NCBI RefSeq assembly: GCF_003002815.1
Contig: NZ_PVTF01000011.1
Span: forward strand, 62,001-126,000
Direction: 5' to 3'
Origin: Umezawaea tangerina
Lineage (GTDB): Bacteria > Actinomycetota > Actinomycetes > Mycobacteriales > Pseudonocardiaceae
Length of the DNA stretch: 64,000 bases
Below the pieces are notes generated by a model, which did no database searches, was not told where the DNA came from, and worked only from the letters and a program-made list of their open reading frames with translations. The translations under genes were made by a program, and so were the position numbers. Shown in pieces: positions 21,767 through 44,979 of this stretch (position 1 is the stretch's first letter; each line of letters starts with the position of its first letter).

Positions 21767-22537
21767 TCAGAACGCGATGGCGTTGTCGCTCAGGACGTCG
21801 CCGACGTCGAGGTGGCCGAGGTCCGCGACGTGGCTGATGTCGCCGATGCCGGACACGCCGCCGAGCGCGGAGGTCACGTCGCCGACGTGGCCGACGCCGC
21901 CGAGCACGTCACCGGCCTGCGCGATGTCGCCGAGGTGCAGGGCGTTGTCGGTGACGGTGCCGGTGAGGCCGGACAGGTCGCCGCCGAGGACGTCGCCGGT
22001 GCCGAGACCGGTGGTGATGTCCTGGACGGTCCCGGTGACGTGGGTGGTGTCGAGGACGTCGGCCCCGGAGGAGAGGTCGCCGACGAGGTCGGTCACCTGG
22101 CTCTGCGCGGTGATGTCGTGCACGACCTCGGTGACCTTGGCGTGCGCGGTGAGGTCGTTCACGCTGTCCAGCGAGCCGCCGAGGACGTCGGCGTCGAGGC
22201 CGTCGCCCAGGTCCGTCACGGCGGAGAACTGGCTGGTCAGCTGCTGCGCGGTGGCCGTGACACCGGTGAGGGCGCTGGTGTCCGGCAGGCCGAGGGCGCC
22301 GCTGTCGAGGACGTCGAGGGCGTTGTCCGAGGACAGCGACCCGAACACGCCGCCGAGTCCCTGAACGGGGGAGTGGTCCAGGACGAGCGGGAGGATCTCC
22401 TGCACGTCCAGCGCGGAGACGTCGCCCAGTCCGGCGGTCTGGAGGACGCCCTCGGGGTCGGCCTGGAACGCCGAGAGTGCCTGCGAGTCGTTCAGCAGGT
22501 GGGAGGCGAAGTCCTGCAGCGTCTCGAACGTGACCAT
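21767..22537 (-). CDS. IniB N-terminal domain protein with low-complexity GD-rich body
   Basis: 256 residues; an AGGAG ribosome site precedes the ATG. Residues 1-60 (ETLQDFASHLLNDSQALSAFQADPEGVLQTAGLGDVSALDVQEILPLVL) form the IniB N-terminal-like domain. The rest is degenerate, with repeated V-x-D/G-D-V-L-G-G/T-D/G segments (DVLGGSLDSV, DVLGGDLSGL, DVLGGVGHVGDVTSALGGV). It has no charged clusters, signal peptide or membrane helix. Mycobacterial IniB is induced by cell-wall inhibitors, but the biochemical role is unknown. A 66-bp inverted repeat lies 110 bp upstream. Confidence 0.75.
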   Translation of the reverse strand: MVTFETLQDFASHLLNDSQALSAFQADPEGVLQTAGLGDVSALDVQEILPLVLDHSPVQGLGGVFGSLSSDNALDVLDSGALGLPDTSALTGVTATAQQLTSQFSAVTDLGDGLDADVLGGSLDSVNDLTAHAKVTEVVHDITAQSQVTDLVGDLSSGADVLDTTHVTGTVQDITTGLGTGDVLGGDLSGLTGTVTDNALHLGDIAQAGDVLGGVGHVGDVTSALGGVSGIGDISHVADLGHLDVGDVLSDNAIAF

Positions 22538-22850: not shown

Positions 22851-24173
22851 TCAAGAAGCCCCAGGCGCGTTCCGTGTCGGAGTCCGATGTGGACGGTCCC
22901 GGTCCAGCGGGGCGACGCCGGGCGCGCCGTCCTCCTGGCCGATCTCCGGCACCCGGCGCACGGCCAGCGCGCCCGCGATCCCGAGCAGCGCGAGGAAACC
23001 GAAGAACGCGGTGTACCCGCCGAGGCCCAGCAGCAGCGGCGCGGACAGCGGGACCAGGGACTGCGGCAGCATGTTCGCGATGTTGACGATGCCCAGGTCC
23101 TTGCCCGCGTTCGCGCCGTCGGGCAGCACCCGCACGCACATCGCCATGTCCACGGCCAGGAACGTGCCCATCCCGACCCCCATGACGCCCGCCGCGACGA
23201 ACACGACGGAGGTCGACGGCGCGAACGCCAGCAGCGCCATCGCGACCACGCCGATCAACGCCGACACCACCACGAACGGCTTCTGCCGCCGCAGCACGTC
23301 CGAGAGGTGCCCCGCGCCGAGGCTCGCGATGATCGCGGTGGGCACGAGGATCGCCGACCACGTCAGCACCAGCCCGCCGACGTCGGCCTGGCTCACGCCG
23401 AACCGCTGGATCAGGTAGAGCGAGACGTAGCTGCCCGCCGCGTAGGTGGCGGTGATGAGGAACCGCACCAGCCACGCCCAGCCGAAGGCCGGGTGGCGGC
23501 GCGGGTCGAGCCAGAACGTCCGCAGCACCACGCCGATCCCGCCGTGCCCGTCCCGGCGCGGGCGCGGCCTGCCCTCGCGGATCAGCAGCACCGACACCAC
23601 ACCCGCCACGGCCGCGATCGCGGCGACCACCCGCCACTGCAGCGCCGACCCGGCGGGCAGCGCGGTGACGATCGCCAGCCCCAGCAGCGGGGCGAGCGGG
23701 ATCACCAGGCCGAGGAGCCCGGAGGCGAGACCGCGCCGCCGCGGGGGCACCTGGTCGGCGAGCACGGCGGTCGTCGCGGACTGCTGGAAGCTGAACAGCG
23801 CCTTGGCAAGGCACCACAGCAGGACCACCTGCCACACCGCCGACGTCTCGCCGAGCGCGACCACCGCGGCCGCCCCGGCGAGCGCCCCGAAGAGGATCCA
23901 CGTCCGGCGGCGGCCCAGCGGGAACGCCGCCAGGTCGCTGATCCGGCCCGCGATCGGGGTGGACACCAGCACGACGACGGCGGCGAGGCCGGTGACCAGG
24001 CCGAAGGAGTCCGTCGCCGCCCCGGTGTCGGAGGTCAGGGCGGTCAGCCGCAGCGCCAGCAGCAGCTGCAACGGGGTGATGATCGCGATGTACACCCCGA
24101 ACTGAGAGGTCAGCAGCGCGGCGGCGAGTCGGCCGAACCCGGTGGTCCCGGTGCCGGGGGCGTCGATGCTCAT
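22851..24173 (-). CDS. MFS transporter (possible product exporter of the terpenoid cluster)
   Basis: 440 residues from the ATG at 24173 (GGAG ribosome site 8 nt upstream). Twelve hydrophobic helices; motif A-like loops PIAGRISDLAAFPLGRRRTWIL and GAGHLSDVLRRQKPF. The first loop resembles the GPH/sugar-cation and maltose-type MFS branch (SDLAAFPLGRRRTW). It is divergent from the first biosynthetic gene of the terpenoid cluster, sharing its AT-rich promoter region, so a role in export of the product is plausible but unproven. The C-terminal tail of about 35 residues is proline/arginine-rich and contains a copy of the 13-mer GTCCGATGTGGAC. Confidence 0.85.
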   Translation of the reverse strand: MSIDAPGTGTTGFGRLAAALLTSQFGVYIAIITPLQLLLALRLTALTSDTGAATDSFGLVTGLAAVVVLVSTPIAGRISDLAAFPLGRRRTWILFGALAGAAAVVALGETSAVWQVVLLWCLAKALFSFQQSATTAVLADQVPPRRRGLASGLLGLVIPLAPLLGLAIVTALPAGSALQWRVVAAIAAVAGVVSVLLIREGRPRPRRDGHGGIGVVLRTFWLDPRRHPAFGWAWLVRFLITATYAAGSYVSLYLIQRFGVSQADVGGLVLTWSAILVPTAIIASLGAGHLSDVLRRQKPFVVVSALIGVVAMALLAFAPSTSVVFVAAGVMGVGMGTFLAVDMAMCVRVLPDGANAGKDLGIVNIANMLPQSLVPLSAPLLLGLGGYTAFFGFLALLGIAGALAVRRVPEIGQEDGAPGVAPLDRDRPHRTPTRNAPGAS

Positions 24174-24338
24174 CCGGTTCTCCTCCGCGCGTGCCAGTCG
24201 GTGTGCGGTCGGCGACAAAGGGAGGTGACAGCACGTCACCAGTCGGTGAATCTTCTTGGGGGAATCGGATATCGGTCAACCGCTGTAATGGTGAATATCG
24301 ATTACCGTCCGGTCAATGGCGTAATTGAGACAGGGGGC

Positions 24339-24368: not shown

Positions 24369-24437
24369 TCCAGTGGATTTGATCGGCGCAAGAAGTCTGA
24401 CCGAATGTGGTTCGCCTCACCGGGAAAGGCTGGTCTC

Positions 24438-25478
24438 GTGGCCCGGATCATCCACCAATTATCCCTCAACGAGAATTGTTCGCCGCCGTTGCCGGGTGTG
24501 GTCGAGGCGTTGTCGGGCGCGCTGGACCAGGTCCACCTCACCCTCGACGCGCTGGCCGACGGCCTCGCGGCCGACCTGGCCGGACGCCTGGGGCTCGACG
24601 CGGGGCGGGTGGTGGCCGGAGCCGGGTCCGGGGCGCTGCTCCAGCAGTTCCTCACGGCGCACGCCGGTGCGGGGACGACGGTGGTGCACACCTGGCCGTC
24701 GTTCGAGATGTACCCGCTGCTGATCCGCAACGCCCTGGCGGAGCCGGTCGCGGTGACCGGTCCCGACGACCGGCAGGACCTGGCGGCCGTGGCGGCCGCG
24801 GTCACCCCGGACACCTCGGTCGTGCTGCTGTGCAACCCGAACAACCCCACCGGTGAGGTGCTCGACGCCGCCCGGCTCCGCGACCTGCTCGACGCCCTGC
24901 CGCCGCACGTGCTCGTGCTGGTCGACGAGGCCTACCGGGAGTTCGCCGCCCCGGACGCGATCGCCGACGCCGTGGAGCTGCACAGGACCGACGACCGGGT
25001 GGCGGTCGTCCGGACCTTCTCCAAGTCCCACGGGCTGCTGGGCCTGCGCGTCGGATACCTGGTGGGGGCGGCCGAGGTCGTCGCGCCGGTGCGCCGCACC
25101 ACGCCGTTCTACCGCGTCCCGACCATCGCCCAGGCGGCGGCGGTGGCCGCGCTCAAGGCCGAGCCGGAGATGCGGGAGCAGTGCGAACGGGTGGCCGCCG
25201 AGCGGGACCGCGTCCGGTCCGGGCTGCTGGACCTGGGCTTCGACGTGCCGCCCAGCGGCGGGAACTTCCTGTGGCTGCGGCTCGGTGCGCGCAACCGGGA
25301 GTTCGTGGAGCACCTGGCCGAGGACGGCATCGCCGTCCGCGCACTGGCGGGCGGCTCGGGGGTGAGGGTCAGCACCGGCATCCCCGAGGCCAACGACGCG
25401 GTCCTGCGCGCGGCGGGCCGGTTCGCCGCCGGACTCGCCGCGGCCCGCACGACGCCCGCCTCGACCGACCACCGCTGA
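24438..25478 (+). CDS. HisC-like PLP-dependent aminotransferase of the terpenoid cluster
   Basis: 346 residues from GTG at 24438, preferred over the ATG at 24405 because GGAAAGG lies 7 nt upstream and the preceding codons have atypical third positions. Fold-type I class II signatures: SLNEN (residues about 9-13), CNPNNPTG, LVDEAYREF, and RTFSKSHGLLGLRVGYL with the PLP lysine at 196. It is most like histidinol-phosphate/aromatic aminotransferases. It is strikingly similar to the N-terminal half of the fusion at 33018-35000 (IxHQLSLNEN, HLTLDALADGL, FSKSHGLLGLRVGYLV), so the two are paralogues inside one cluster. Its amino acceptor is unknown; an aromatic or imidazole-type keto precursor is possible. 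Confidence 0.88.
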   Translation: MARIIHQLSLNENCSPPLPGVVEALSGALDQVHLTLDALADGLAADLAGRLGLDAGRVVAGAGSGALLQQFLTAHAGAGTTVVHTWPSFEMYPLLIRNALAEPVAVTGPDDRQDLAAVAAAVTPDTSVVLLCNPNNPTGEVLDAARLRDLLDALPPHVLVLVDEAYREFAAPDAIADAVELHRTDDRVAVVRTFSKSHGLLGLRVGYLVGAAEVVAPVRRTTPFYRVPTIAQAAAVAALKAEPEMREQCERVAAERDRVRSGLLDLGFDVPPSGGNFLWLRLGARNREFVEHLAEDGIAVRALAGGSGVRVSTGIPEANDAVLRAAGRFAAGLAAARTTPASTDHR

Positions 25479-25490
25479 CCGGGGCACCGC

Positions 25491-25517
25491 GGGCCGGGTG
25501 CCGCGCGTGCCCGGCCC
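25491..25517 (+). terminator. Hairpin between aminotransferase and cyclase genes
   Basis: GGGCCGGG (25491-25498) and CCCGGCCC (25510-25517) pair perfectly with an 11-nt loop. It starts 13 nt after the aminotransferase stop and 70 nt before the cyclase. It may attenuate rather than end transcription, since the genes are co-oriented. Confidence 0.45.
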
Positions 25518-25586
25518 GACGGCGCCGACCTCGTGATCCCCCACTCGTGACGAGCCCCCGGTCCCGGCCGGGTGAGAGGAACCCGA

Positions 25587-27278
25587 ATGACTTCGGTGCA
25601 CGTCGACCCCGATCCGTTCACGGAGGTCCTCGAAGCGGCGATCGCCGAGGGAGCCGAGGTCCTGTTCGGCGCCCAGCGCGACGACGGCGTGTTCGACTAC
25701 GGCGAGGACAGCCTGACCTCGACCCTGGGCACGGTCGGCGCGGTGTCGGCGCTGCACTTCGCCGACCCCGTGGGCAGCGCCGACCTGATCGCCGCGGGCG
25801 CCGGGTGGCTCAGGCGCACCCAGAACGAGGACGGCGGCTGGGCGATGGTCCCCGGCCTGCCGAGCGAGGCGGGCCCGACGGCGGTCGCCTCCGCCGTCCT
25901 GCACCTGGTCGACCCGGAGGGCAGCGCGACCCCGGTCGCCACCGGGCAGCGCTGGATGGACGACCACGGCGGCCTGGACGCGATCCCGCACCCCGAGGTC
26001 GTCTCGTGGTGCCGCCAGTACTACGGCTTCGTCGGCTGGCTGGCCCCGGAGGACATGCGCCGCTTCCCGCTGGAGCTGGCGCTGCTGCCCGGCCTGTACC
26101 GCAGGCTGTTCGACCTGCGCCTGCCGATGGCGTCCGCGCTCGGCCTCGCCCAGGCCCGGCACAAGCCGCTCACCCGGCTCCAGCGCGCGCTGGCCCGCTG
26201 GGGGGAGCCCAACGCGCTGAAGGTGGTCCGGCAGGTCTACGAGCACGAGGGCTCGACCGGGGCCTGGTGCGAGAACGCGTGGGTCACCGGGCTGGTCTGC
26301 ACCGGTCTGGCCCGCGCGGGTCTGGCGCCGGACATGGTCGCCGCCGCCGTCGGGTGGTTCCACCGGTCCATGGCGCCCGACGGCTCGTGGGAGACCGGCC
26401 CGCTCGACGCGGCCTGGACGATGTACGCCGCGCGCGGCCTCGCCGAGGCGGGCTACGCGGGCGACCCGCGGCTGGCGGCCTCGGTCCGGCTGTTCGTGCG
26501 CATCCAGCAGCACCGCCCGTTCCTGGCGTTCGGCTGCCCGCCGGGCTACTGGGGCTGGTCGGGCACGGAGGGCTGGCCCTCGACCCTGGAGACGGGAGAG
26601 GTCCTCTCCGTGCTGTGCAGGCTGCCCGGCGACGAGCAGGCGGACGCGGTCCGCCGGGGGGTCGACTGGCTCACCCGCGTGCAGGACACCCGCGGGTCCT
26701 GGGGCCTCTGCGTGCGCAACACCAAGGTGGCCAACAGCGGTCCGTGCCCGATGACCACCGTGCAGGCCGTCGACGCCCTGCTCGACGCGGGTGTGCCCGC
26801 CGGCGACCGCCGGGTGCGCCGCGCACTGGGCTGGCTGGCGCGGGTCCAGAGCCCGGAGGGCACCTTCGAGTCGGTCTGGTACCGGCACCACACCATGGGC
26901 ACCGCGGCCGTGCTGGAGACCTTCTCCAGGGTCGGGCGCGCGGCCGACGAGCCCGCCCGCCGGGCGGTGGCCTGGCTGGAACGCACCCGGCTGCCCGACG
27001 GGTCGTGGGGGGACGGTTCCGGCGCGCCCGGCACGGTCGAGGAGACCGGCTGGGCGGTGTCCTCCCTGCTGGCCGCGGGCGCGGACCCGGCCACCGTGCG
27101 GTCGGGCGTGGACTGGCTGCTGGCGCGCCGACGGCCCGGCGGCGGGTGGCCGTCGGAGAACGTGCACGAGTACGTGCGCTTCGTGAGCCGGTACAGCAAC
27201 CCCGCGTTCGCCCACGGGATGGCGCTGCGCGCGCTCGGCCGCTACCGGACGGCGACCCGGCGGGACACGACTTCGTGA
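25587..27278 (+). CDS. Squalene-hopene-cyclase-like terpene cyclase lacking DxDD
   Basis: 563 residues from ATG at 25587 (GAGAGGAA upstream). Repeated alpha/alpha-barrel helices and QW-like segments run through it: RRTQNEDGGWAMVPG, MAPDGSWETGP, RVQDTRGSWGLCV, RVQSPEGTFESVW, RTRLPDGSWGDGS and RRRPGGGWPSE. This is the prenyltransferase/squalene-oxidase repeat fold of class II cyclases. In SHC the helix after a conserved proline reads P-D-x-D-D-T-A; here residues 331-337 are P-S-T-L-E-T-G, so the catalytic DxDD has become STLE. Either another acid (Glu335 or an upstream Asp/Glu) initiates cyclisation, an epoxide substrate lowers the demand, or the protein is not a cyclase. Context (UbiA, FAD epoxidase, prenyl synthase) supports cyclisation of a prenylated intermediate. 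Confidence 0.82.
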   Translation: MTSVHVDPDPFTEVLEAAIAEGAEVLFGAQRDDGVFDYGEDSLTSTLGTVGAVSALHFADPVGSADLIAAGAGWLRRTQNEDGGWAMVPGLPSEAGPTAVASAVLHLVDPEGSATPVATGQRWMDDHGGLDAIPHPEVVSWCRQYYGFVGWLAPEDMRRFPLELALLPGLYRRLFDLRLPMASALGLAQARHKPLTRLQRALARWGEPNALKVVRQVYEHEGSTGAWCENAWVTGLVCTGLARAGLAPDMVAAAVGWFHRSMAPDGSWETGPLDAAWTMYAARGLAEAGYAGDPRLAASVRLFVRIQQHRPFLAFGCPPGYWGWSGTEGWPSTLETGEVLSVLCRLPGDEQADAVRRGVDWLTRVQDTRGSWGLCVRNTKVANSGPCPMTTVQAVDALLDAGVPAGDRRVRRALGWLARVQSPEGTFESVWYRHHTMGTAAVLETFSRVGRAADEPARRAVAWLERTRLPDGSWGDGSGAPGTVEETGWAVSSLLAAGADPATVRSGVDWLLARRRPGGGWPSENVHEYVRFVSRYSNPAFAHGMALRALGRYRTATRRDTTS

Positions 27279-27321
27279 GCCGCCGGTCCCACCAGCTGAC
27301 CCCAGGAACCGGAGAGGCCCG

Positions 27322-28536
27322 ATGACCGGCACGACGCACGAGGACTCCTTCACCGAGGACTACTGGCGCGACCCGCACGAGACCCTCGCCAGGACGCGCG
27401 AGACCAGCCCCGTCCGCGAGGTCGAGTTCGAGACCGGGCCGACCTGGCTGGTCACCCGCTACGCCGACGTGCGCGCCGGGCTCACCGACGAGCGGCTGGC
27501 CAAGGACTGGCGGTCGAGCCTCCCGGAGGAGGAACGGGCCTCCGCGCCACCGGGGCTGCCCGCGCCGATGTCGCACATGCTGACCTCGCTCGACCCGCCG
27601 GAGCACACCCGGCTGCGGAACCTGGTCGTCCAGGCGTTCACCGCGCGCCGGATCGCCGAGCTGCGCCCGCGGGTCGAGGCCGTCGCCGCCGAGCTGCTCG
27701 ACGCCCTGCCCGAGCACGAGCCGGTCGACCTCGTGGCGCGGTACGCGATCGTCCTGCCGATGGTGGTGATCTGCGAGCTGCTCGGCGTTCCCGAGATCGA
27801 CCGCGAGGAGTTCGCCCGCCTCTCGACCGTCCTCATCGACGAGTGCCCCGAACCCGAGATGGTCCTGGCCTCCACCCGGATGGCCGACTACCTGGAGGGC
27901 CTGGTCGCCGCCAAGCGCGCGGCACCGGACAGCGCGCTGCTGTCCGCGCTGATCACGGCGTCGGACGAGGGCGACCGGCTCTCCGACCTGGAGATCGTGG
28001 CGATGGCGATGCTGCTGCTCATGGCGGGCCACGAGACCACCGCCGTGTTCATCACCAACAGCGTCCGCGCGCTGCTGGCCGACCCGGCCGGGCTGGACCG
28101 CCTCGCCTCCCCGGCGTCCGCCCCGTCCCTGGTCGAGGAGCTGCTGCGCTGGCTCTCGCCCGCCATCAACGCCTCGCTGCGCTTCGCCACGGAGGACCTG
28201 GAGATCGGCGGGGTGGCGATCCGCAGGGGCGAGTCGGTGATGCTGTCGACCGGCGGCGCCAACCGCGACCCCGCCCAGTTCCCGGAACCGACGAGGTTCG
28301 ACCCGGACCGCGACACCGCCGGCCACCTGGCCTTCGGCCACGGGATCCACCGCTGCCTGGGGGCGGCCCTGGTCCGGCTGGAGGGCGAGGTGGGCCTGTC
28401 CGCCCTGTTCAGCCGGTTCCCGCTCATGCGGGCGGCCGCCGACCCCGCGGACCTGACCTTCCGCCGCAGCGTCCACGTCCACGCCCCGCGCACGTTCCCG
28501 GTCGTGCTCGGTCCCAGGACCGAACCGGGCGAGTGA
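27322..28536 (+). CDS. Cytochrome P450
   Basis: 404 residues with GGAGAGG before the ATG. I-helix: LLLMAGHETTAVFI, with the acid/Thr pair for O2 activation replaced by the usual GHETT of bacterial class I P450s. The ExxR helix follows, then the heme loop FGHGIHRCLGAAL with Cys345 as thiolate ligand. Length and motifs match soluble actinomycete CYP105/CYP107-like enzymes, which need external ferredoxin; none is encoded nearby. In this cluster it would oxidise the terpenoid skeleton. A perfect 11-bp hairpin follows. Confidence 0.95.
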   Translation: MTGTTHEDSFTEDYWRDPHETLARTRETSPVREVEFETGPTWLVTRYADVRAGLTDERLAKDWRSSLPEEERASAPPGLPAPMSHMLTSLDPPEHTRLRNLVVQAFTARRIAELRPRVEAVAAELLDALPEHEPVDLVARYAIVLPMVVICELLGVPEIDREEFARLSTVLIDECPEPEMVLASTRMADYLEGLVAAKRAAPDSALLSALITASDEGDRLSDLEIVAMAMLLLMAGHETTAVFITNSVRALLADPAGLDRLASPASAPSLVEELLRWLSPAINASLRFATEDLEIGGVAIRRGESVMLSTGGANRDPAQFPEPTRFDPDRDTAGHLAFGHGIHRCLGAALVRLEGEVGLSALFSRFPLMRAAADPADLTFRRSVHVHAPRTFPVVLGPRTEPGE

Positions 28537-28542
28537 CGCGCC

Positions 28543-28576
28543 GCCGGTCGCGGTCGTCCCGACGGCCGCGACCGGC
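28543..28576 (+). terminator. Hairpin terminator after the P450
   Basis: GCCGGTCGCGG (28543-28553) pairs perfectly with CCGCGACCGGC (28566-28576), 12-nt loop, starting 6 nt after the stop. It closes the aminotransferase-cyclase-P450 unit. Confidence 0.65.
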
Positions 28577-28621
28577 CTGGACTCGCCGGGGGAGCGGACC
28601 TCGGCCCGCGCCCCCGCAGCC

Positions 28622-29455
28622 TCACTCCTTCACGGTCGTCGCCGACATCCCGGCCTCCTGGAACCTGCCCCACCGCGGCTCCGCCCCGCGCGGCTCGTCA
28701 CCCATCACGGTGACCCGCTGCCCCACCCGGCGCCCCGCGTAGTCGTTCACCGCGTAGTGCTGGGTCGCCCTGTTGTCCCACATCGCCACCGCGCCCTCCA
28801 CCCACCGGTACCGGCAGGTGCGCTGCGGGCTCTCCGACACCGCGAACAGGTGCTCCAGCAGCGCGTCGCTCTCACCCTTGCTGAGCTGGAGGATCCGCCG
28901 GGTGAACATGCGGTTGACGTAGAGGCTCCGGCGGCCGGTGACCGGGTGCGTCCGGACCACCGGGTGCTCGGCCTCGCTGCGGAACGTGCCGTTCGGGTGG
29001 ACGAACAGGTGCGACGCCGTGGTGCCCTCCAACAGGTCCCGGATCGGTTCCGACAACGCCTCGTAGGCGAGGTACTGGTTGCTCCACATCGTGTCGCCGC
29101 CCGATTCCGGCGTCAGCGTGATCTGCAGGACGGAGGCGATGGGCGGGCTTTGGGCGAACGTCACGTCGGTGTGCCAGACATCGGCGCGCGCGCCTTGTTC
29201 GGAATCGAGCACGACGATTTTGTCGTGGCCTTCCAGTTTCGGCAGGAAGGGGTGCACCTCCAACTGCCCGAACCGGCTGCCGAACGCCTCGTGGGCCTGC
29301 GGGGTCAGGCCGCCCGCGTCCGGGAAGAAGAGCACGAGATGGCGCATGAGCAGGTCGTGGACCTCCTTGAACTGCTCGTCGTCGACCGAGCCGAGGTCGA
29401 CGCCGTACACCTCGGCGCCGAGGGAACCGGAGATCGGGCGAACCTGGAATGGCAT
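28622..29455 (-). CDS. TauD/TfdA-family Fe(II)/2-oxoglutarate dioxygenase
   Basis: 277 residues. The iron-binding facial triad is visible: WHTDVTF gives His95 and Asp97, and TQHYAVNDY gives His233; an Arg about 11 residues later (GRRVGQRVTV) would bind 2-oxoglutarate. The N-terminus VRPISGSLGAEVYGVDLGSVDDEQ is standard for TauD-like enzymes. It would hydroxylate, desaturate or cleave an aliphatic position using 2-oxoglutarate and O2. It is transcribed toward the P450 and divergent from the methyltransferase, so it forms its own transcription unit within the cluster. Confidence 0.93.
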   Translation of the reverse strand: MPFQVRPISGSLGAEVYGVDLGSVDDEQFKEVHDLLMRHLVLFFPDAGGLTPQAHEAFGSRFGQLEVHPFLPKLEGHDKIVVLDSEQGARADVWHTDVTFAQSPPIASVLQITLTPESGGDTMWSNQYLAYEALSEPIRDLLEGTTASHLFVHPNGTFRSEAEHPVVRTHPVTGRRSLYVNRMFTRRILQLSKGESDALLEHLFAVSESPQRTCRYRWVEGAVAMWDNRATQHYAVNDYAGRRVGQRVTVMGDEPRGAEPRWGRFQEAGMSATTVKE

Positions 29456-29548
29456 GTCGTACGCCTTTCTTCTGATGTGCGCGATCGAATTCCGTGCGCG
29501 TGTCCGGCGGCACGGTCGACAGGGATTTCGGAATGCTCGTCGTTTCTC

Positions 29549-29578
29549 TTGACCGCCTTCGCGCGACGATGTCAGGAT
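29549..29578 (+). promoter_or_regulatory. Predicted promoter of the O-methyltransferase gene
   Basis: TTGACC (29549-29554) and CAGGAT (29573-29578) are separated by 18 bp and lie 48 bp upstream of the methyltransferase ATG, in the divergent region shared with the dioxygenase. Confidence 0.45.
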
Positions 29579-29625
29579 CTTGGTGGACGAATCGTCTCCC
29601 GCCCTATCGAGGGGAATTCATCGGA

Positions 29626-30618
29626 ATGACCGCACAGGACGAGTTGGCGAAGATGGTCGACCTCGCGACGCCGTTCGCGGTCAGGGTGGCCGTCACCCTG
29701 CACCTGCCCGAGCTGATCGACGGCGGCACCACCGGGCTCGCCGAGCTGGCCGCCTCCGCCGGGGCCGTCCCCGACGCGTTGCGCAGGCTGCTGGACCACC
29801 TCACCTCCATCGGCTTCTTCGCCCGGCCGCGGCCCGGCGTCTACGCGTTGACCGACGTGTCGCGCCTGCTGCTGAGCGAGGACTACGGCGCGGCGCGCAG
29901 CTGGCTCGACAGCGAGGGGCCGGGCGCGAGGATGGACCTCGCCTTCGCGGGCATGGCGCACTCGGTGCGCACCGGCAAGTCCGCCTACGGGGTCGTGCAC
30001 GGCGTCCCGTTCTGGGACGACTACGGCGCCGACGAGGAGCTGCGGGTCTTCTTCGGCGGGATCATGGCCGTCCACGCCTGGCAGACCGGCCCGGTCGTGG
30101 CCACCGAGGTCGACTGGACGTCCAGCCGTCGGGTGCTGGACGTCGGGGGCGGTGTCGGCGCGCTGCTGGCCGAGGTGCTCAAGGCCAACCGGCACCTGAC
30201 CGGCGCCGTCCTGGACCTGCCCCCGGTCGAGCCGGACGCCACCACCGCGCTGAAGGAGGCCGGGGTGTCCGACCGGGCGGGCTTCGTGCCCGGCAGCTTC
30301 TTCGACCCGCTGCCCACCGGCTACGACACCTACGTGATCTCCAGGGTCGTCACCGACTGGGACGACGAGGACGCGCTGCGGATCATGACCCGCGCCGCCG
30401 AGGCCGTCGGCACCGGCCGGGTGCTGGTCGTGGAGGTGCTGGCCGGGCAGGAGCACGCGAAGAACAACTCGTCGTTCGACCTCCAGTCGCTCGCCCTGCT
30501 CGGCGGCCGGGAGCGCTCGGAGGAGGACTTCGTCGCACTCGCCGGGCGCGCCGGGTTCGCCACCGCCACCGCCCGCCGCTGGGACAGCGGGCTGCTCGTC
30601 GTGGAGTGCGGGCTCTGA
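29626..30618 (+). CDS. SAM-dependent O-methyltransferase (AdoMet_MT acetylserotonin-type)
   Basis: 330 residues from ATG at 29626. The N-terminal winged-helix dimerisation domain (about 1-95: FAVRVAVTLHLPELIDGGTTGLAELAASAGAVPDALRRLLDHLTSIGFF) precedes a Rossmann MT domain with motif I VLDVGGGVGALLAEVL. YDTYVISRVVTDWDDEDALRIM corresponds to the WNDE-type region; here WDDEDA replaces the plant-like HDW/WND order. The usual catalytic His before the W is not obvious (VVTDWDD), as in some actinomycete polyketide OMT relatives of unusual reactivity. It probably methylates a phenol or hydroxyl of the cluster product. Terminator hairpin downstream. Confidence 0.9.
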   Translation: MTAQDELAKMVDLATPFAVRVAVTLHLPELIDGGTTGLAELAASAGAVPDALRRLLDHLTSIGFFARPRPGVYALTDVSRLLLSEDYGAARSWLDSEGPGARMDLAFAGMAHSVRTGKSAYGVVHGVPFWDDYGADEELRVFFGGIMAVHAWQTGPVVATEVDWTSSRRVLDVGGGVGALLAEVLKANRHLTGAVLDLPPVEPDATTALKEAGVSDRAGFVPGSFFDPLPTGYDTYVISRVVTDWDDEDALRIMTRAAEAVGTGRVLVVEVLAGQEHAKNNSSFDLQSLALLGGRERSEEDFVALAGRAGFATATARRWDSGLLVVECGL

Positions 30619-30633
30619 ACCAGGACGTCGACG

Positions 30634-30673
30634 GGGGTGGTCGGCCGGGTGGGTCCGTCCGGTCGACCACCCC
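30634..30673. terminator. Hairpin between convergent methyltransferase and monooxygenase genes
   Basis: GGGGTGGTCG (30634-30643) and CGACCACCCC (30664-30673) pair perfectly over 10 bp. They lie between two convergent genes and could serve both. Confidence 0.55.
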
Positions 30674-30725
30674 GCGGCGGCTTCGTGGCACGGGTGCCGC
30701 ACCGGCACGGGATCCCGGCGCGCCG

Positions 30726-31991
30726 TCACCGCGACCGCGCCCAACCCGGCAGCCGCCCGCCCCTCGGGTCGGGCAGCACGCCCAGCTGGTGCAGCCGGTC
30801 CAACGGGGTGAGGGGGTGCTGCCCCAGCCCCGCCATGTTGTGCATGATCGTGTAGCGCAGCCGCCGGTTGCCGCCGGTCTTGCGCAGCGCGCGGCGGCCC
30901 AGCACCCGCACGAGCGGCGACAGGTCGCTGATCATGCGGGTGGCGTTGTGGCTGGTCGTCCCGACGTGCGCCAGCGCCTGCCTGCGCTCGGCGCTCCACT
31001 CGCGCAGCCGCGGCCGCAGCAGGTCCGGTGACAGGTCGCCGTCGAGCGGGCGCAACCGCGTCGCCAGGCTCGCCGCGTCCAGGATCGAGCTGTTCATGCC
31101 CTGACCCGCCGCCGGGTGCACGGCGTGCGCGCTCTCCCCGATCAGCACCAGCCCGTCGGCGGTCAGCGACGTGGCCAGCGCCCGCCCCACCGGCAGCACC
31201 TGCCGGGTCGGCCAGGCGCGGGCGACGTCCTCGCGCAGCGGGGCGAACGCCGGGACGTCGCGCACCAGGCCGTCGACCCACCCGGCCGCGGCGGTCGCGT
31301 CCACGCCCCGGAGCTCGTCCGGTCCGACCTGCACGTACAGCCGTGCCCGCCCGCCGGGCAGTGGGTAGCGCATCGCCAGGCCGCGCGGGGTCGCGTAGGT
31401 GGATACGTCGTCGCCCGGCGCCTGGCCGGTCAGCTCGAACGCCGCCAGCCGGTGCTCGTAGTCGGTGCGCACGACCTCGATCCCGGAGGCGCGGCGCAAC
31501 CGCGAGGACACCCCGTCGGCCGCCACGACCAGCGCCGCCGTCAGGTCGCCGCCATCGGTGCGCACGCCCGTCGTGCGGCCGTTCTCGTCGCGCAGCAGCT
31601 CGCGCACCAGCACCCCGCGCCGCAGCTCGACCCCGGCGGGCAGCGTGCGGCTCAGCGCGCCCAGGATCACGTGGTAGTCGTGCACGAGCAGCCACGGCCG
31701 CTCGGTGGGCAGCGTCCGGTAGTCCATCGTCATCAGCGCCGCGCCGTGCGGGTCGCGCGCCACCAGGCCCGACAGGCGCAGCGCGCCGTCTGCGTCCAGC
31801 TCGTCGACGACACCCCAGTGCGCGAGCACGCCCGCCGCGCCGGGTTGCAGCAGCTCGCCCTTCGGCACGGCCCTGACCGCGCGCTGCTTGTCCAGCACCA
31901 GCACGCGCAGGCCGAGCCCGCCCAGCGCGTGCGCCGCCGCGAGCCCGGCGACCCCGGCCCCGCACACCACCACGTCCACGTCGGTACTCAT
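30726..31991 (-). CDS. FAD-dependent monooxygenase (UbiH/GGR-type), putative prenyl epoxidase
   Basis: 421 residues from ATG at 31991. FAD motifs: DVDVVVCGAGVAGLAAAHALGGLGLRVLVLDK at the N-terminus, the DG motif in VVAADGVSSRLRR, and GLVLIGESAHAVHPAAGQGMNSSILDA (GD-like motif, here GES in place of GD). These define class A flavoprotein monooxygenases. In clusters holding a UbiA prenyltransferase and a cyclase, such proteins epoxidise the terminal prenyl alkene and so prime proton-initiated cyclisation. That role is an inference; hydroxylation of the aromatic ring is an alternative. It is third in the minus-strand operon, 40 bp after UbiA. Confidence 0.88.
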   Translation of the reverse strand: MSTDVDVVVCGAGVAGLAAAHALGGLGLRVLVLDKQRAVRAVPKGELLQPGAAGVLAHWGVVDELDADGALRLSGLVARDPHGAALMTMDYRTLPTERPWLLVHDYHVILGALSRTLPAGVELRRGVLVRELLRDENGRTTGVRTDGGDLTAALVVAADGVSSRLRRASGIEVVRTDYEHRLAAFELTGQAPGDDVSTYATPRGLAMRYPLPGGRARLYVQVGPDELRGVDATAAAGWVDGLVRDVPAFAPLREDVARAWPTRQVLPVGRALATSLTADGLVLIGESAHAVHPAAGQGMNSSILDAASLATRLRPLDGDLSPDLLRPRLREWSAERRQALAHVGTTSHNATRMISDLSPLVRVLGRRALRKTGGNRRLRYTIMHNMAGLGQHPLTPLDRLHQLGVLPDPRGGRLPGWARSR

Positions 31992-32031
31992 GCCCAGCCC
32001 CGTCCCCGGTCGTCGTAGTACCTCACGCGTG

Positions 32032-33015
32032 TCATGAGGCGGTCGCCCTCCGCAGGCCCGCCGGGGGGATCTCGTGCCGGGCGCGCATCGCGTGCTGGGT
32101 GACGACGCTGAACGCGACGACCGGCAGCAGCACCGCCACCGCGACCGGCGCGCCCGCACCGGCGGCCGTCACCGCGCACGCCAGCACGAGCCGTTCGGCC
32201 ACCAGGACCTCGTGGGCGCGCAGCGCCGACTCGCGGGTGATGCCGTCGCCCTGGGTCAGCAGCCCGCCGAACACCCACGCGCCGATCGCGGTGGCCACCA
32301 CCAGCAGCGTCAGGTAGGACGTGCGGTCGGGCAGCGGCACCAGCACGGACGCCACGGCGGCGACCAGCGCCGAGCCGTAGAGGGCCTGCGCCAGGCGCGC
32401 GCCGTAGGCGACACCCCGTTGCACCGGCACCGACCGGTACCCGCCCGCCTCGTCGCCCTCCACGTCCCGCACCGCGCCGACCAGGTTGGACGCGGCGTCG
32501 TGCAGCAGGAACACCACGGCGAACGGCACCGCCGTCCACACGCGGCCGTCGGGCACGCAGGTGGCGCCCGCGAGCACGGCCAGCGAGGTCAGCGCCCCGC
32601 GCACCAGGTTGCCGGAGATGCCGCGCCCCTTGCACAGGCGGCTGTAGGCGGCGATCCCGGCCACGCCGACCACCAGCAGCACCAGCACCCGCCAGCCCGC
32701 GACCGCCGCCGCTGCCGCCGCGACGACCTCGCACACCACCGCCGAGAGCAGCGCGGCGCGCGGGCCGAGCCGCCCCGAGGGGATGGGGCGCTGGGGTTTG
32801 TCGATCGCGTCCAGGTCGCGGTCGAGCCAGTCGCCCAGGTAGTGCCCTCCCAGCCAGACCAGCACGGGGATCAGGACGGCCGCGACCAGGTGCCGCGGCT
32901 CGGGGTGGCCGCCCGCGACGGACGCGCCCGCCAGCCCGACGACACCGGGGTAGGGCAGCGTGTACGGGCGCCACGTCTGGACGTGTGCTTCGACGGTGCG
33001 CCGCCAGGTCGCCAC
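32032..33015 (-). CDS. UbiA-family membrane prenyltransferase
   Basis: 327 residues with about eight or nine membrane helices. The first Mg2+-diphosphate motif appears as GHYLGDWLDRDLDAIDKPQRPIPSGRL (D-x-x-D-x-D, then the KPxRPIPSG loop), and the second as NLVGAVRDVEGDEAGGYRSVPV (DxxGDxxxG). These are the two Asp-rich sites that bind the polyprenyl diphosphate. GTG at 33015 has GGAGGCGG upstream and follows the stop of the fusion gene by 2 bp, so coupling is likely. It should attach the prenyl chain made by the fused synthase domain to an aromatic or other acceptor. Confidence 0.93.
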   Translation of the reverse strand: MATWRRTVEAHVQTWRPYTLPYPGVVGLAGASVAGGHPEPRHLVAAVLIPVLVWLGGHYLGDWLDRDLDAIDKPQRPIPSGRLGPRAALLSAVVCEVVAAAAAAVAGWRVLVLLVVGVAGIAAYSRLCKGRGISGNLVRGALTSLAVLAGATCVPDGRVWTAVPFAVVFLLHDAASNLVGAVRDVEGDEAGGYRSVPVQRGVAYGARLAQALYGSALVAAVASVLVPLPDRTSYLTLLVVATAIGAWVFGGLLTQGDGITRESALRAHEVLVAERLVLACAVTAAGAGAPVAVAVLLPVVAFSVVTQHAMRARHEIPPAGLRRATAS

Positions 33016-33017
33016 GG

Positions 33018-35000
33018 CTACCGCCTCCGGTCGACCGACATGTCCGCGACCTCGGCGAGCATCGCGGTGTGCTCGTTGGCGGGCAGGTCGGCGAGGTAGG
33101 ACTTCGCGAGCGCGACCTCGGCCTCGGCGTGCTCCACCGCGCGCTTGAGCGCGCCCGTCTCGTCGAGCACGTCCCGCAGCGCCGTGAACGCCTCCTCCGG
33201 CGTCAGCTCACCGCTGAGCGCGCCCACCACCCGTGCGCGCTGCTCCGGCGTGCCGGTCTCGTGGGCGAGCAGCACCGGGTAGGTGGGGCGCAGGTTGCGC
33301 AGGTCGCTCAGCCCGGACTTGCCGGTGACGGCGGGGTCGGACAGGTAGGGCAGCAGGTCGTCGTGCATCTGGAACGCGAGACCGAGGTGCTCGGCGTACT
33401 GGCCCACCGCGTCGACCACGGCGGGCTCCGCGCCGCCGAGCACCGCGCCCGCCCGGCACGCGCCGCGGAACAGCGCCCCCGTCTTGAGCGCCATCACCGT
33501 CACGTACTCCGCCAGCGGGCGCGAGGGGTCGGTGGCCATCGCGCCCTCCAGCGCCTGGCCGCGGCACACGTCCACCGCGGCGTCGGAGATCGCGCGCACC
33601 GCCCGCAGCGCGGCCGCCTCCGGCACACCCCGGTCGACGCAGGTCGTCACCGAGCCGAACGTGCGCATCATCAGCGCGTCGCCGGTGACGATGGCGTCGG
33701 GCACGCCGAAGCGGTGCTGCACCGACGGCCTGCCCCGGCGCGTCTCGTCGCCGTCGATCACGTCGTCGTGCACCAGCGACCCGACGTGCAGGTACTCCAC
33801 CGCGAGCGCGGCGGGCACGACCTGCTCCACGTCCCCGCCGACCGCGCCCGCCGCGGCGGTGAGCAGCAGGGGGCGCAGCAGCTTGCCCGGTATGAGCAGC
33901 GCGTAGCGGGAGATGGCGAGCACCGGGTCGTCCTGCTCCGGCCACTCGCCGTGCAGCGCCTCGCGCAGCCGGGACACGACCGCCTCGGCGGCGGGGGAGA
34001 AGCCCTTGCGGGTGTACTCGCCGACCAGCGCGATCACCGCGTCGTTGGCCTCGCGCGTCCCCACGGTCACCCGGACGCCCAACCCTCCCACGTCGCCGAC
34101 CGCCACCCCGTGCTCGGCGAGGAACTCGACCAGTGGCGGTCCCTCCGCCCCCAGCGGGAGCCACAGGTAGTTGCCCGCGCTCGGCGGCACCGGCAGGCCG
34201 TGGTCCAGCAGCGCGGTCCGCAGCCGGTCGCGCTCGACGCGCACCGCGGCGCACTGCGCGCGCATCCGGTCCTCCGCGGCCAGCGCGGCGATGGCGGCGG
34301 CCTGGGCGACCGTGCTGACCCGGAAGAAGGGCGCGGTGCCGCGCAGCGGCGTGACGACCCGCTCCGCCGCCACCAGGTAGCCCACCCGCAGGCCCAGCAG
34401 GCCGTGCGACTTGGAGAACGTCCTGACCACCACGACGCGGGGGTCCTCGCGGTGCAGGGCCAGCGCGTCGGCGATCTCGGCGGGGTCGGAGAACTCGCGG
34501 TACGCCTCGTCCACGACCAGCAGCACGTCCGGTGGCAGGGCGTCCAGCAGCCGCCGCACCTCGGCGTGGCCCAGCACCGACCCCGTGGGGTTGTTCGGGT
34601 TGCACAGCAGGACGGCCCTGGTCCTGGGCGTCACCGCGGCGGCCGTCGCGTCGACGTCCGTGCCGTACCCGTCGGCCAGCGGCAGCACGACCGGCGTGGC
34701 ACCGGTGTTGCGCACGAGCGGCCCGTACCCCCAGAACGACGGCGAGGCGTGCACGACCTCGTCGCCGGGCCCGGCCGTACCGTCGAGCAGCTGCTGGAGC
34801 ACCGCGCCGGAGCCCGCCCCGACCAGCACCTCGGAGGCGGGCACGCCGAGGTGGGCCGCGATGGCGGCGGTGAGCCCGTCGGACATCGCGTCCAGGGTCA
34901 AGTGGGAGTTGTCGGCGGCTGCTATTACCGCTTCTCGGACTCCGGGCAGCGGAGGGGCGAAGTTCTCATTGAGGGAAAGCTGGTGGACGATGTTCGGCAC
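33018..35000 (-). CDS. HisC-like aminotransferase fused to polyprenyl diphosphate synthase
   Basis: 660 residues if the GTG at 35000 is used (GGGGA 7 nt upstream); the frame is open to an ATG at 35102, but those codons have low third-position GC and no match to the paralogue. Residues about 1-335 are a complete fold-type I aminotransferase (SLNEN, CNPNNPTG, VVDEAYREFSD, FSKSHGLLGLRVGY with Lys197). Residues about 355-655 are a trans-prenyl synthase: KLLRPLLL, LHVGSLVHDDVIDGDETRRG with the first Asp-rich motif D412-D416, GDALMMRTF, MALKTGALFRGAC, and FQMHDDLLPYLSD, where the second motif is DDLLP (547-551), its last Asp replaced by Pro. The residue five before the first motif is Gly, where actinobacterial GGPP synthases often carry a bulky residue, so a chain of C20 or longer is possible. 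Fusion suggests coordinated supply of both UbiA substrates. Confidence 0.92.
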   Translation of the reverse strand: MPNIVHQLSLNENFAPPLPGVREAVIAAADNSHLTLDAMSDGLTAAIAAHLGVPASEVLVGAGSGAVLQQLLDGTAGPGDEVVHASPSFWGYGPLVRNTGATPVVLPLADGYGTDVDATAAAVTPRTRAVLLCNPNNPTGSVLGHAEVRRLLDALPPDVLLVVDEAYREFSDPAEIADALALHREDPRVVVVRTFSKSHGLLGLRVGYLVAAERVVTPLRGTAPFFRVSTVAQAAAIAALAAEDRMRAQCAAVRVERDRLRTALLDHGLPVPPSAGNYLWLPLGAEGPPLVEFLAEHGVAVGDVGGLGVRVTVGTREANDAVIALVGEYTRKGFSPAAEAVVSRLREALHGEWPEQDDPVLAISRYALLIPGKLLRPLLLTAAAGAVGGDVEQVVPAALAVEYLHVGSLVHDDVIDGDETRRGRPSVQHRFGVPDAIVTGDALMMRTFGSVTTCVDRGVPEAAALRAVRAISDAAVDVCRGQALEGAMATDPSRPLAEYVTVMALKTGALFRGACRAGAVLGGAEPAVVDAVGQYAEHLGLAFQMHDDLLPYLSDPAVTGKSGLSDLRNLRPTYPVLLAHETGTPEQRARVVGALSGELTPEEAFTALRDVLDETGALKRAVEHAEAEVALAKSYLADLPANEHTAMLAEVADMSVDRRR

Positions 35001-35143
35001 GCTGAGGTCCCCGTTCACCGGTCGAGCCGTCAGGAAAACATCGAAGGCGTTCCGAACAACCTCTACCGAATTGACGGCTTCCTGGGAAGGGGGATGACGC
35101 ATTGTGGAGAACGCGCTAAAGGGCGACCGGATGGACGCGGATG

Positions 35144-43017: not shown

Positions 43018-44601
43018 CTACGGCGTCGCGGGTCGGGCCATCCAGAGCCAAGCCCGGTCGCGGAAGGTCTTCACCTCGACGTCGACGGGGACGAACTCGT
43101 CCGGGTCCACGCCCGGCACCCCTTCGGCGACCACGTAACCGTGCAGCCGGTCCGACAGCACGATCGCCAGGTCCACGTCCGGGTGGTCGAGCACGGCCCG
43201 GCGCAGCGGTGGGCTGTCGAGCAGGCGCCCCAGACTGGTCGCGACCTTTCCTCCGAACCCGAGCGCGGCCAGACCGACCGGTCCGACGTCGACCGCCATG
43301 CGCAGCCGCACCCGGTCGCGGTGCACGGTGTTGTCGCGCCCCAGCCGCTCCGCGGCGCCGCGCAGCAGCCTGGGCAACGCGCGCTGGACGTCCACCCGTT
43401 CGGGCAGGAACACCATCAGCCCGTCACCGGTGCCCTGGTGGTCGGCCTCGGGCAGCCGCACGTCCAGGTCGTCCAGCACTCCCTCGACCAGCGCGACCAT
43501 CCGCCGCTGCACCAGTTCCTGGTCGGGTGTGGAGCGGCGGCCGTAGTCCACGACGTCGATCACGAACCCCGTCCGCATCCGCCTGCCGGTGGGATGGCCT
43601 GCCGCTTCCGGTCGGGTGCTGAGCCCGCGCACCTCGGCGGCGAGTGCGCGCCCACGGGTCAGCCCGAGCAGCGAGTCGTCCAGCGTCGCCAGGAACCAGT
43701 CGGCCAGTCCGACGTCCGCGGGAAGCAGGTCGGGTTCCAGTGCCGCCATGTTCGTCCTGGTGGTCTCCACCGACGTGCGCATCCGCTCCACCCGGTCGCC
43801 CGCGACCCGCAGTCCGATCTCGTCGCGGCGCAGCTCGTCGACGGCGGACGCCGGGTCGTCGCGCGACTCGACGACATGGCCGTCGACCTGTTCGCGCAGG
43901 CCCGCCAGCCACGGTTCGTCGCGTCGCCACACCCGGACGTGGTGGCGCAGCAAGGACGCGTGCAGCAGGTAGCGGCCCAGCGGTGGCATCTCCGATCCGC
44001 CCCTGCTCCACGTCCACGCGGTCAGCTCGTCGTCCTCGCCCTCGGCCGCGATCACCACGAGGTCGCGTGACCGCCCCACGTCGTCCACGGGTTCCCACAC
44101 CAGGAACCGCCTCCGCCGCTGCCAGCGCACGACGTCGCGCAGGCGTTCGGGCAGCCAGGCGCGCACGTCGTCGGCGGGCTGCTTGGCCTGGTGGACCCGG
44201 ACAACGCCGAGAGCGGATCCCGCGTCGGCCCCTACTACCTCGTCGCACCAACGATCGAACTCGATCCACCCCGGCGGGGCTGCCGCGCCGAGCCCCGGCG
44301 TGCCGGGCACGGCGAAGATCAGCGACAGGGCGAGCACGGCACCGGCGCGGCGCAGGACCACCTGCACGTCCACCGCGCCGTTCTGGGCGGCGGCCAGCGC
44401 GCCATCGGGTTCGCCGCGGACGTCGGCTGGTGGAGTCGTCGGCAGGCCGACCCGCGGCACCGGTTCGGTGGCGCCCAGCAGGTCGCGGCACCGGGCCCAG
44501 ATCGCCTTGACCCCGCCGATCGCCGCGTCCGCGTGCTCACCGCGCGACGGGACGTAGAGGTGGACGACCAGTTCCTGCTCAGCCGGTCCGGGGGTGGTCA
44601 T
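43018..44601 (-). CDS. CATRA conflict-system protein with class III nucleotidyl-cyclase-like domain
   Basis: 527 residues. The N-terminal about 250 residues (LVVHLYVPSRGEHADAAIGGVKAIWARCRDLLGATEPVPRVGLPTT ... WIEFDRWCDEVVG ... GRYLLHASLLRHHVRVWRRD) match what I know as the CATRA (caspase/TPR-repeat-associated) family. A helical linker (about 255-320) follows. Residues about 340-525 resemble a class III nucleotidyl cyclase: FVIDVVDYG with Asp349, and TGDGLMVF with Asp393. The 44-residue spacing equals that of the two metal-binding aspartates in mammalian adenylyl cyclase. VRLRMAVDVGPV is the following strand pair. It may make a nucleotide signal for the neighbouring CHAT protease. Enzymatic activity is inferred; substrate-specifying residues were not resolved. 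Confidence 0.8.
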   Translation of the reverse strand: MTTPGPAEQELVVHLYVPSRGEHADAAIGGVKAIWARCRDLLGATEPVPRVGLPTTPPADVRGEPDGALAAAQNGAVDVQVVLRRAGAVLALSLIFAVPGTPGLGAAAPPGWIEFDRWCDEVVGADAGSALGVVRVHQAKQPADDVRAWLPERLRDVVRWQRRRRFLVWEPVDDVGRSRDLVVIAAEGEDDELTAWTWSRGGSEMPPLGRYLLHASLLRHHVRVWRRDEPWLAGLREQVDGHVVESRDDPASAVDELRRDEIGLRVAGDRVERMRTSVETTRTNMAALEPDLLPADVGLADWFLATLDDSLLGLTRGRALAAEVRGLSTRPEAAGHPTGRRMRTGFVIDVVDYGRRSTPDQELVQRRMVALVEGVLDDLDVRLPEADHQGTGDGLMVFLPERVDVQRALPRLLRGAAERLGRDNTVHRDRVRLRMAVDVGPVGLAALGFGGKVATSLGRLLDSPPLRRAVLDHPDVDLAIVLSDRLHGYVVAEGVPGVDPDEFVPVDVEVKTFRDRAWLWMARPATP

Positions 44602-44887: not shown

Positions 44888-44979
44888 TCGCGCTGCTCCC
44901 TCCGTCGCGGCCACCACCGTAAGGGGTTGCCACTGGACGTTCGCGCCACGTCGCACCGGCGGCGGCCCGTTCCACCCGA

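Follow-up and report, generated by a model that had tools for sequence, protein, structure and literature searches.

The gene block and its make-up

The window, a 64,000-nucleotide stretch of contig NZ_PVTF01000011.1 from Umezawaea tangerina, carries a compact biosynthetic gene block whose limits we corrected to 24405–35102 (Table 1). All the gene families claimed for it in a preliminary description were found with Pfam and NCBIfam models. That description had counted three transcription units; strand instead gives four blocks, namely AT1, the cyclase (CYC) and the P450 (+), TauD alone (−), the O-methyltransferase (OMT) alone (+), and the fusion gene with UbiA and the FAD monooxygenase (FMO) (−). 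The fusion gene is a single open frame of 694 amino acids (aa), with Aminotran_1_2 at residues 41–357 and polyprenyl_synt at residues 396–630. A codon-based caller indicates that the true start of the OMT gene is probably at about 29626. For the CATRA/CHAT genes, PADLOC returned no match.

Table 1. Genes of the block and the adjoining transporter (positions in the window)
Feature	Position	Strand	Basis
MFS transporter, divergent from AT1; probable exporter	22851..24239	−	Pfam
AT1, Pat/HisC-type aminotransferase, free-standing, PLP motifs intact	24405..25478	+	Pfam, NCBIfam
CYC, SHC-like class II terpene cyclase (squalene–hopene-cyclase fold), without DXDD	25572..27278	+	Pfam
Cytochrome P450; top NCBIfam model pentalenolactone synthase, below cut-off	27322..28536	+	Pfam, NCBIfam
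TauD, PlaO1-type Fe(II)/2-oxoglutarate dioxygenase	28622..29455	−	Pfam, PlaO1 comparison
O-methyltransferase (Methyltransf_2 + Dimerisation)	29494..30618	+	Pfam
FMO, FAD monooxygenase, UbiH-like, weak squalene-epoxidase match; proposed prenyl epoxidase	30726..31994	−	Pfam, NCBIfam
UbiA-family prenyltransferase	32032..33015	−	Pfam
AT2 (about 1–370) + polyprenyl (GGPP-type) synthase (about 371–694) fusion	33018..35102	−	Pfam

The gene set is conserved across actinomycetes

The expectation that the block would be conserved in other actinomycetes was borne out, as the gene set is present in dozens of species, among them members of Umezawaea, Saccharothrix, Saccharopolyspora, Lentzea, Amycolatopsis, Micromonospora and Streptomyces. 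When loci were found with the cyclase and the stretch around each was searched, the full set of seven core functions was present in 38 of 43 named loci, and this grouping is not due to chance. With UbiA alone as the query, 3 of 394 genomes of the class gave matches at E ≤ 1e-22, as did 19 of 160 Micromonospora genomes at E ≤ 1e-30. These matches correspond to 21 distinct places, every one of which has a GGPP synthase (GGPPS) gene within 1.5 kb; the cyclase lies no more than 1.5 kb from UbiA in 19 of them and is more distant, in the same cluster, in the remaining two (the window and L175).

The other genes recur to different extents. OMT was found in 40 of the 43 named loci and a close relative of the P450 in 14, and a close homologue of the MFS transporter is present in 5, all of them loci with the aminotransferase–GGPPS fusion (in L079 the copy sits at the opposite end of the cluster). 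Three core loci with a DXDD-less cyclase (L046, L048 and L087, the last of which ends at a contig end) contain neither FMO nor TauD within the stretch; TauD was not found within the stretches of L060 and L092, and at L209 TauD is present and UbiA, cyclase and FMO were not found within the stretch. At L066 and L067 the gene trees conflict, with the cyclase grouping with the fusion clade and UbiA, FMO and the aminotransferase (AT) grouping with Nocardia/Streptomyces loci, from which we infer that the cyclase–P450 unit has been exchanged.

A class II cyclase fold without the DXDD motif

The canonical class II cyclase, squalene–hopene cyclase (SHC), relies on DXDD as its catalytic motif. The predicted structure of the window cyclase (AlphaFold, pLDDT 91.7) has a class II cyclase fold, and its top Foldseek match is 1sqc (TMq 0.78); MstE, a meroterpenoid cyclase of solved structure, is a lower match (TMq about 0.4). 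The fold is thus shared with squalene–hopene cyclase, but the motif is not: the DXDD position of the window protein reads S-T-L-E (residues 337–340). DXDD is absent from all 57 core members, which have x-x-(L/V/M)-(E/D) in its place, a count that includes L060, a locus without an AT, and leaves out the distant cyclase relatives of L061–L063 and L105, likewise without an AT. The third motif position is an acid in none of the 57 and the fourth is E or D in all of them. Among the distant cyclases, L061 reads ETDD, L062 and L063 read ESED, and L105 has no acid there.

Homology of the cassette to genes of a phenalinolactone-type cluster

The preliminary description knew of no characterised relative, a view that does not survive comparison with the cluster for the antibiotic phenalinolactone, the lactone of which originates from pyruvate. 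The top relative of TauD with a solved structure is PlaO1, the phenalinolactone dioxygenase (E = 4.9e-100, compared with 1.2e-63 for taurine dioxygenase), to which it is 55.7% identical over 264 columns. A PlaO1 fragment is in turn 98.9% identical over 262 aa to L208, which by this sequence match represents a phenalinolactone-type cluster. At L208 the gene order is FAH–UbiA–CYC–FMO–TauD, with deoxysugar genes close by, and the window UbiA, CYC, FMO and TauD are 48, 39, 50 and 56% identical, respectively, to their counterparts there. The two clusters therefore share homologous UbiA, DXDD-less class II cyclase, FMO and PlaO1-type dioxygenase genes as well as their order. They differ in that L208 has a FAH-family gene (FAH), whereas the window instead has a Pat/HisC-type AT together with GGPPS in the operon, and in that the window core includes an OMT, unlike L208. 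They also appear to differ in deoxysugar genes, which occur at L208 and did not turn up when 20 window proteins were searched with Pfam models. By description, tiancilactones are close phenalinolactone analogues with a butyrolactone.

Aminotransferase and FAH alternate beside the cassette

Among 54 neighbourhoods with UbiA, CYC, FMO and TauD, gathered by several different searches, 49 contain an AT only and 5 contain FAH only; none has both and none has neither. FAH occurs in 5 of 64 neighbourhoods, each time immediately 5′ of UbiA, and had no match in the window between 14001 and 46000, where the AT is found instead. In the cyclase tree the FAH loci form a single clade separate from the AT loci, and the pattern of AT or FAH essentially reflects a single branching event. 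When scored by the best AT match, the AT lies just upstream of (GGPPS–)UbiA in 27 of 53 AT loci; it lies downstream of UbiA in 21, and in 5 the best match is on the opposite strand, so AT and FAH share a position in only part of the family.

Among solved structures, AT1 is closest to a mycobacterial 'putative phenylalanine aminotransferase' (4r2n, E = 1.4e-66), ahead of HisC (E = 7.9e-40); its top NCBIfam model, histidinol-phosphate transaminase, scores below the curated cut-off. The RYP motif has been lost in the window ATs and their group 1 relatives, mostly through replacement of RYP(D) by HLTLD or NLT-D forms, and is kept in group 2 and in the Pat-like and HisC-like paralogues of the same genome. 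Given this loss, the substrate of the window ATs may differ.

A proposed meroditerpenoid pathway

We propose, with a probability of about 70%, that the block encodes the core of a meroditerpenoid pathway of the phenalinolactone type, belonging to a sister, AT-type lineage and fitted with a different acceptor module. The prenyl synthase would produce GGPP, and the Pat-like aminotransferase would convert an amino acid to the α-keto acid that serves as the acceptor, AT1 and AT2 presumably sharing this one job. By homology to the UbiA encoded beside PlaO1, the prenyltransferase would join the geranylgeranyl chain to the α-keto acid or a derivative. FMO could then epoxidise the chain, the DXDD-less class II cyclase could convert the epoxide to rings, and the PlaO1-type dioxygenase could oxidise the keto-acid-derived part, possibly to a butyrolactone, with OMT and the P450 probably providing decoration. 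The terpenoid or meroterpenoid logic put forward in the preliminary description, in which a prenyl synthase and UbiA act with an FAD epoxidase and a cyclase, is supported, and an amino- or keto-acid-derived partner is plausible.

Alternative roles for the aminotransferases

Twin aminotransferases had been singled out earlier as a special feature, with distinct roles that would both be required, and AT1 and AT2 are indeed just 62% identical and fall in separate clades of the AT tree (built without two of the eroded fused copies, those of L074 and L037). The separate clades led us to reject a recent duplication of AT1 as the origin of AT2. The window, L064 and L065 have complete motifs in both copies. 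In the eight fusion-type loci as a whole, however, Gln replaces the catalytic Lys of the fused AT in L068, this copy is eroded in L037, L038 and L074, and L079 has a mere remnant of the free AT. The erosion in L037, L038 and L074 is probably a single event, because their DNA is 94–96% identical. At least one motif-complete copy is kept in all eight loci and the other is lost in five, and the loci listed outside the fusion clade have one such AT or none. The twins look redundant from their sequences, two required roles are very improbable, and the AT–GGPPS fusion forms a side branch in which the duplicates are decaying, not the core of the story. An AT could also act late, adding an amino group to a terpenoid ketone or keto acid; the product would then be an amino-diterpenoid and the UbiA acceptor something else. 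The group 1 replacements of RYP(D) could suit a bulkier substrate, and the AT follows UbiA in the 21 loci noted above; yet it heads the GGPPS–UbiA operon in 27 and alternates with FAH. An early role fits better for these two reasons, and we regard late amination as unlikely.

A further candidate is an indole (or tyrosine) meroterpenoid built on the plan of zigralone, for which an aminotransferase, a prenyl synthase and a UbiA are proposed to make a prenylated indole-pyruvate from L-tryptophan, although the AT gene is dispensable (PMC13307353). Here the AT would form indole-3-pyruvate (or 4-hydroxyphenylpyruvate), UbiA would geranylgeranylate the ring, the cyclase would close the chain and OMT would methylate the aromatic part. 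The zigralone (zig) cluster matches the window in this gene logic, extending to cyclase, P450s and methyltransferase, and the similarity of AT1 to a putative phenylalanine aminotransferase and the frequency of OMT also speak for an aromatic partner. Among 27 DUF6875 places, most of them judged by tblastn with the window proteins, one in a Micromonospora (L167/L176) is zig-like by gene content. Judged by this locus, the parts are not close relatives: the zig-type aminotransferase is of class III (PF00202) and that of the window is PF00155; the cyclase is a Pyr4-type membrane protein (PF25129) and that of the window is SQHop_cyclase; and the UbiA proteins are 26% identical over 142 aa. The zig-type locus has a TPP enzyme, with none among the scanned window cluster proteins, and no TauD match was found in its stretch. 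We rejected the zigralone cluster as a model and treat it as an analogy only, because the AT and cyclase of the zig-type locus come from other families and its UbiA is distant. The PlaO1-type TauD, moreover, indicates keto-acid or lactone chemistry. An indole or tyrosine product is possible but rather doubtful, and with an aromatic keto acid it would overlap the phenalinolactone-type reading. In L163 and L164, OMT and P450 genes adjoin DUF6875.

Implications

Building on the phenalinolactone-type reading, we tentatively suggest that these loci may make bacterial meroditerpenoids of a widespread, unrecognised class. In their synthesis UbiA would geranylgeranylate an amino-acid-derived α-keto acid supplied by a dedicated, sometimes GGPP-synthase-fused AT, a soluble, DXDD-less class II cyclase would close the epoxide, and AT and FAH would be interchangeable acceptor modules that set the keto acid used. 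If this is right, a single gene, AT or FAH, could reveal the choice of acceptor. The cyclases form a natural set for studying class II cyclase action in the absence of the usual acid. The cluster shares the scaffold genes of a known antibiotic pathway, with a different enzyme at the presumed step that provides the non-terpene partner, and what looked like an odd gene list is now a testable hypothesis.

Cluster conservation

The cluster, in a host genome of 10.68 Mb in 34 contigs, is a real, conserved biosynthetic cluster. By strand it falls into four blocks, not the three transcription units of the preliminary description, which had placed it at 24438-35000 (corrected limits in the table). By cyclase (CYC), the closest named locus is in Umezawaea endophytica (91%), and a cyclase query found matches at E ≤ 1e-40 in 27 of the order's 397 genomes, that of the window among them. 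Profile scanning across named genomes yielded 43 named loci with the cyclase (related loci carry L numbers), in which tblastn with score cut-offs placed an aminotransferase (AT) in 39, GGPPS and an FAD monooxygenase (FMO) in 41 each, UbiA in 42, OMT and TauD in 40 each, and a close relative of the P450 in 14. All seven core functions were present in 38 of the 43, in line with the conservation in other actinomycetes that the preliminary description had named as support. Among the incomplete loci, L086 and L087 are ended by contig ends and hold only an AT fragment, L087 also being without FMO and TauD; L092 is without OMT and TauD, L104 gave no match for AT, GGPPS or OMT, and in L105 the cyclase alone of the core set is present. 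A UbiA query matched 3 genomes out of 394 in the class and 19 out of 160 in Micromonospora; at 21 distinct UbiA places, GGPPS (21/21) and the cyclase (19/21) lay within 1.5 kb.

Features of the window and of related loci
Feature	Location	Strand	Content
Cluster	window 24405-35102		AT1–cyclase–P450 (+), TauD (-), OMT (+), fusion–UbiA–FMO (-)
IniB-type gene	window 21767-22537		IniB N-terminal domain protein (NCBIfam NF038175, E 2e-17), adjoins MFS transporter
CATRA gene	window 43021-44601	-	caspase- and TPR-repeat-associated
CHAT gene	window 44980-48030	+	1017-aa protein with CHAT domain, adjoins CATRA gene
CATRA–CHAT pair	window 43021-48030		predicted bacterial caspase-type module
Zigralone-like locus, by gene content (Micromonospora)	L167:9712-19901 and L176:1-1717		class III aminotransferase, GGPPS, UbiA, TPP enzyme, Pyr4-type cyclase, DUF6875
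UbiA fusion, distant relative	L061:3459-6023		UbiA fused to HMGL/homocitrate-synthase-like domain (keto-acid enzyme), adjoins radical SAM-SPASM gene; class II cyclase with ETDD nearby

The group 2 clusters (L088, L091, L093-L103 and L106; mostly Micromonospora) have relatives of glycosyltransferases and of a stand-alone condensation-domain protein near the core, and some also a DegT aminotransferase (the representatives scanned all came from L046 and L054); these genes suggest a product that is glycosylated and perhaps acylated. Elsewhere in the window, the CATRA and CHAT genes had no PADLOC match at E ≤ 1e-5.

An analogy is offered by the zigralone cluster, which comprises an aminotransferase, a polyprenyl synthase, UbiA, a Pyr4-type cyclase and P450s; ZigA–ZigC are proposed to convert L-tryptophan into a prenylated indole intermediate, and zigA proved dispensable in the host (PMC13307353). 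The zigralone-like Micromonospora locus differs from the window in AT class, cyclase and UbiA.

Relationship to phenalinolactone biosynthesis

The window TauD matched the solved PlaO1 (the name given in the PDB entry) at E 4.9e-100 and taurine dioxygenase far more weakly (1.2e-63). PlaO1 belongs to phenalinolactone biosynthesis, in which PlaT1 is the epoxidase, PlaT2 the cyclase and PlaT3 the UbiA protein. A PlaO1 mutant is reportedly blocked in butyrolactone formation, and pyruvate is said to have been deduced as precursor of the butyrolactone ring. The window TauD matches the PlaO1 fragment at 55.7%, and the UbiA–cyclase–FMO–TauD cassette is homologous to that of a phenalinolactone-type cluster; a lack of any characterised relative is not supported. 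A review passage gives Streptomyces sp. Tu6071 as a source of phenalinolactones, with a cluster of 35 genes, and calls tiancilactones close analogues of them (PMC10301674).

TauD matches at E ≤ 1e-60 occurred in 16 of 394 genomes of the family of genome G678 (apparently a Streptomyces). In the neighbourhoods of the ten below 1e-90 (L204-L212 and L175), UbiA, cyclase and FMO accompanied TauD in nine; L209 had none of the three. The PlaO1 fragment matched L208 at 98.9% over 262 aa, L211 at 96.6%, L210 at 93.9%, L104 at 90.1% and L212 at 87.8%. In L208 there are in addition genes for a DegT-type aminotransferase, an NDP-hexose 2,3-dehydratase and a nucleotidyl transferase, as would be expected for a glycosylated product.

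Proposed alternative acceptor modules

In all five phenalinolactone-type loci (L104, L208 and L210-L212; Pfam), an FAH-family gene directly precedes UbiA, with cyclase, FMO and TauD next in order, whereas the other type has a Pat/HisC-like AT instead. Judged by the best AT match per locus, 27 of 53 AT loci have the AT immediately upstream of (GGPPS-)UbiA and on its strand, 21 have it downstream of UbiA (mostly Micromonospora and relatives, there after FMO) and 5 have it on the opposite strand. UbiA, cyclase, FMO and TauD occurred together in 54 of 64 neighbourhoods, of which 49 had AT without FAH, 5 had FAH without AT (absence referring to the Pat/HisC type only), and none had both or neither. 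The remaining ten are AT loci without FMO and/or TauD (L046, L048, L087 and L092) and loci with neither AT nor FAH (L060-L063, L105 and L209). Because the FAH loci group as a single clade in the cyclase tree, with support of 1.0, the 54 neighbourhoods do not count as separate events. The closest relatives of the FAH proteins, at scores below the NCBIfam cut-offs, are isomerase/decarboxylase and acylpyruvase-type enzymes. Such enzymes act on keto acids which, taken with the AT, suggests that both modules may deliver an alpha-keto acid.

Cyclase and prenyl synthase

The AlphaFold model of CYC (pLDDT 91.7, pTM 0.89) had squalene-hopene cyclase 1sqc as its best Foldseek match (TMq 0.78, 22% identity), and reads S-T-L-E at the DXDD place. 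Across all 57 core members, with the pla-type ones counted, L (55), V (1) or M (1) occupies the third position of the motif and E (52) or D (5) the fourth; outside this count are four distant members, L061 (ETDD), L062 and L063 (ESED) and L105 (no acid). Because epoxide opening can proceed with a weaker acid than an alkene requires, and an FMO lies near 54 of the 57 core cyclases, we propose that the reaction starts from an epoxide. Candidate acids are E340, E226, D279 (D in 54/57), D372 and E490. Three AT–GGPPS–UbiA–cyclase loci with the same DXDD-less cyclase (L046, L048 and L087) had no FMO or TauD match in the stretch examined, which in L087 ends near a contig end.

The AT–prenyl synthase fusion is one 694-aa frame, with Asp-rich motifs DDVID (first) and DDLLP (second) in its prenyl synthase part. 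Small residues ahead of the first motif, which would fit a product longer than FPP, point to GGPP as the probable product.

Twin aminotransferases

The free-standing (AT1) and fused (AT2) aminotransferases are 62% identical. The AT tree puts them in different clades: AT1 groups with Lentzea/Amycolatopsis and others, and AT2 branches separately. Among eight fusion-type loci, the fused AT is motif-complete in four (the window, L064, L065 and L079); in L068 the catalytic Lys is Gln, and in L074, L037 and L038 the motifs are gone, probably through one event, because DNA identity among these three is 94-96%. The free AT of L079 survives as a remnant that matches query residues 7-59 and 91-109 only; its first match lies 400 bases from the cyclase, versus 1167, start to start, in the window. 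Since no locus of the eight is without a motif-complete AT, redundancy is the simplest reading of the pair. That the twin pair is the special feature of the cluster is not supported: one copy has decayed in L068, L074, L037, L038 and L079. The RYP motif is absent from the window's ATs and other window-type (group 1) ATs, and kept in group 2 and two own-genome paralogues.

Apparent modularity of the cluster

In Saccharopolyspora indica and S. kobensis (L066/L067), cyclase and P450 share 83-84% identity with those of the window, versus 48-56% for GGPPS, UbiA and FMO, 58-61% for AT, 64-65% for OMT and 69-70% for TauD; the gene trees disagree for these loci in line with this contrast. Both are hybrid clusters, whose cyclase–P450 unit would seem to travel as a block. 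From gene families, beyond which the chemistry is extrapolated, we infer that the cluster is a sister version of the early part of phenalinolactone biosynthesis in which the acceptor module has been exchanged.
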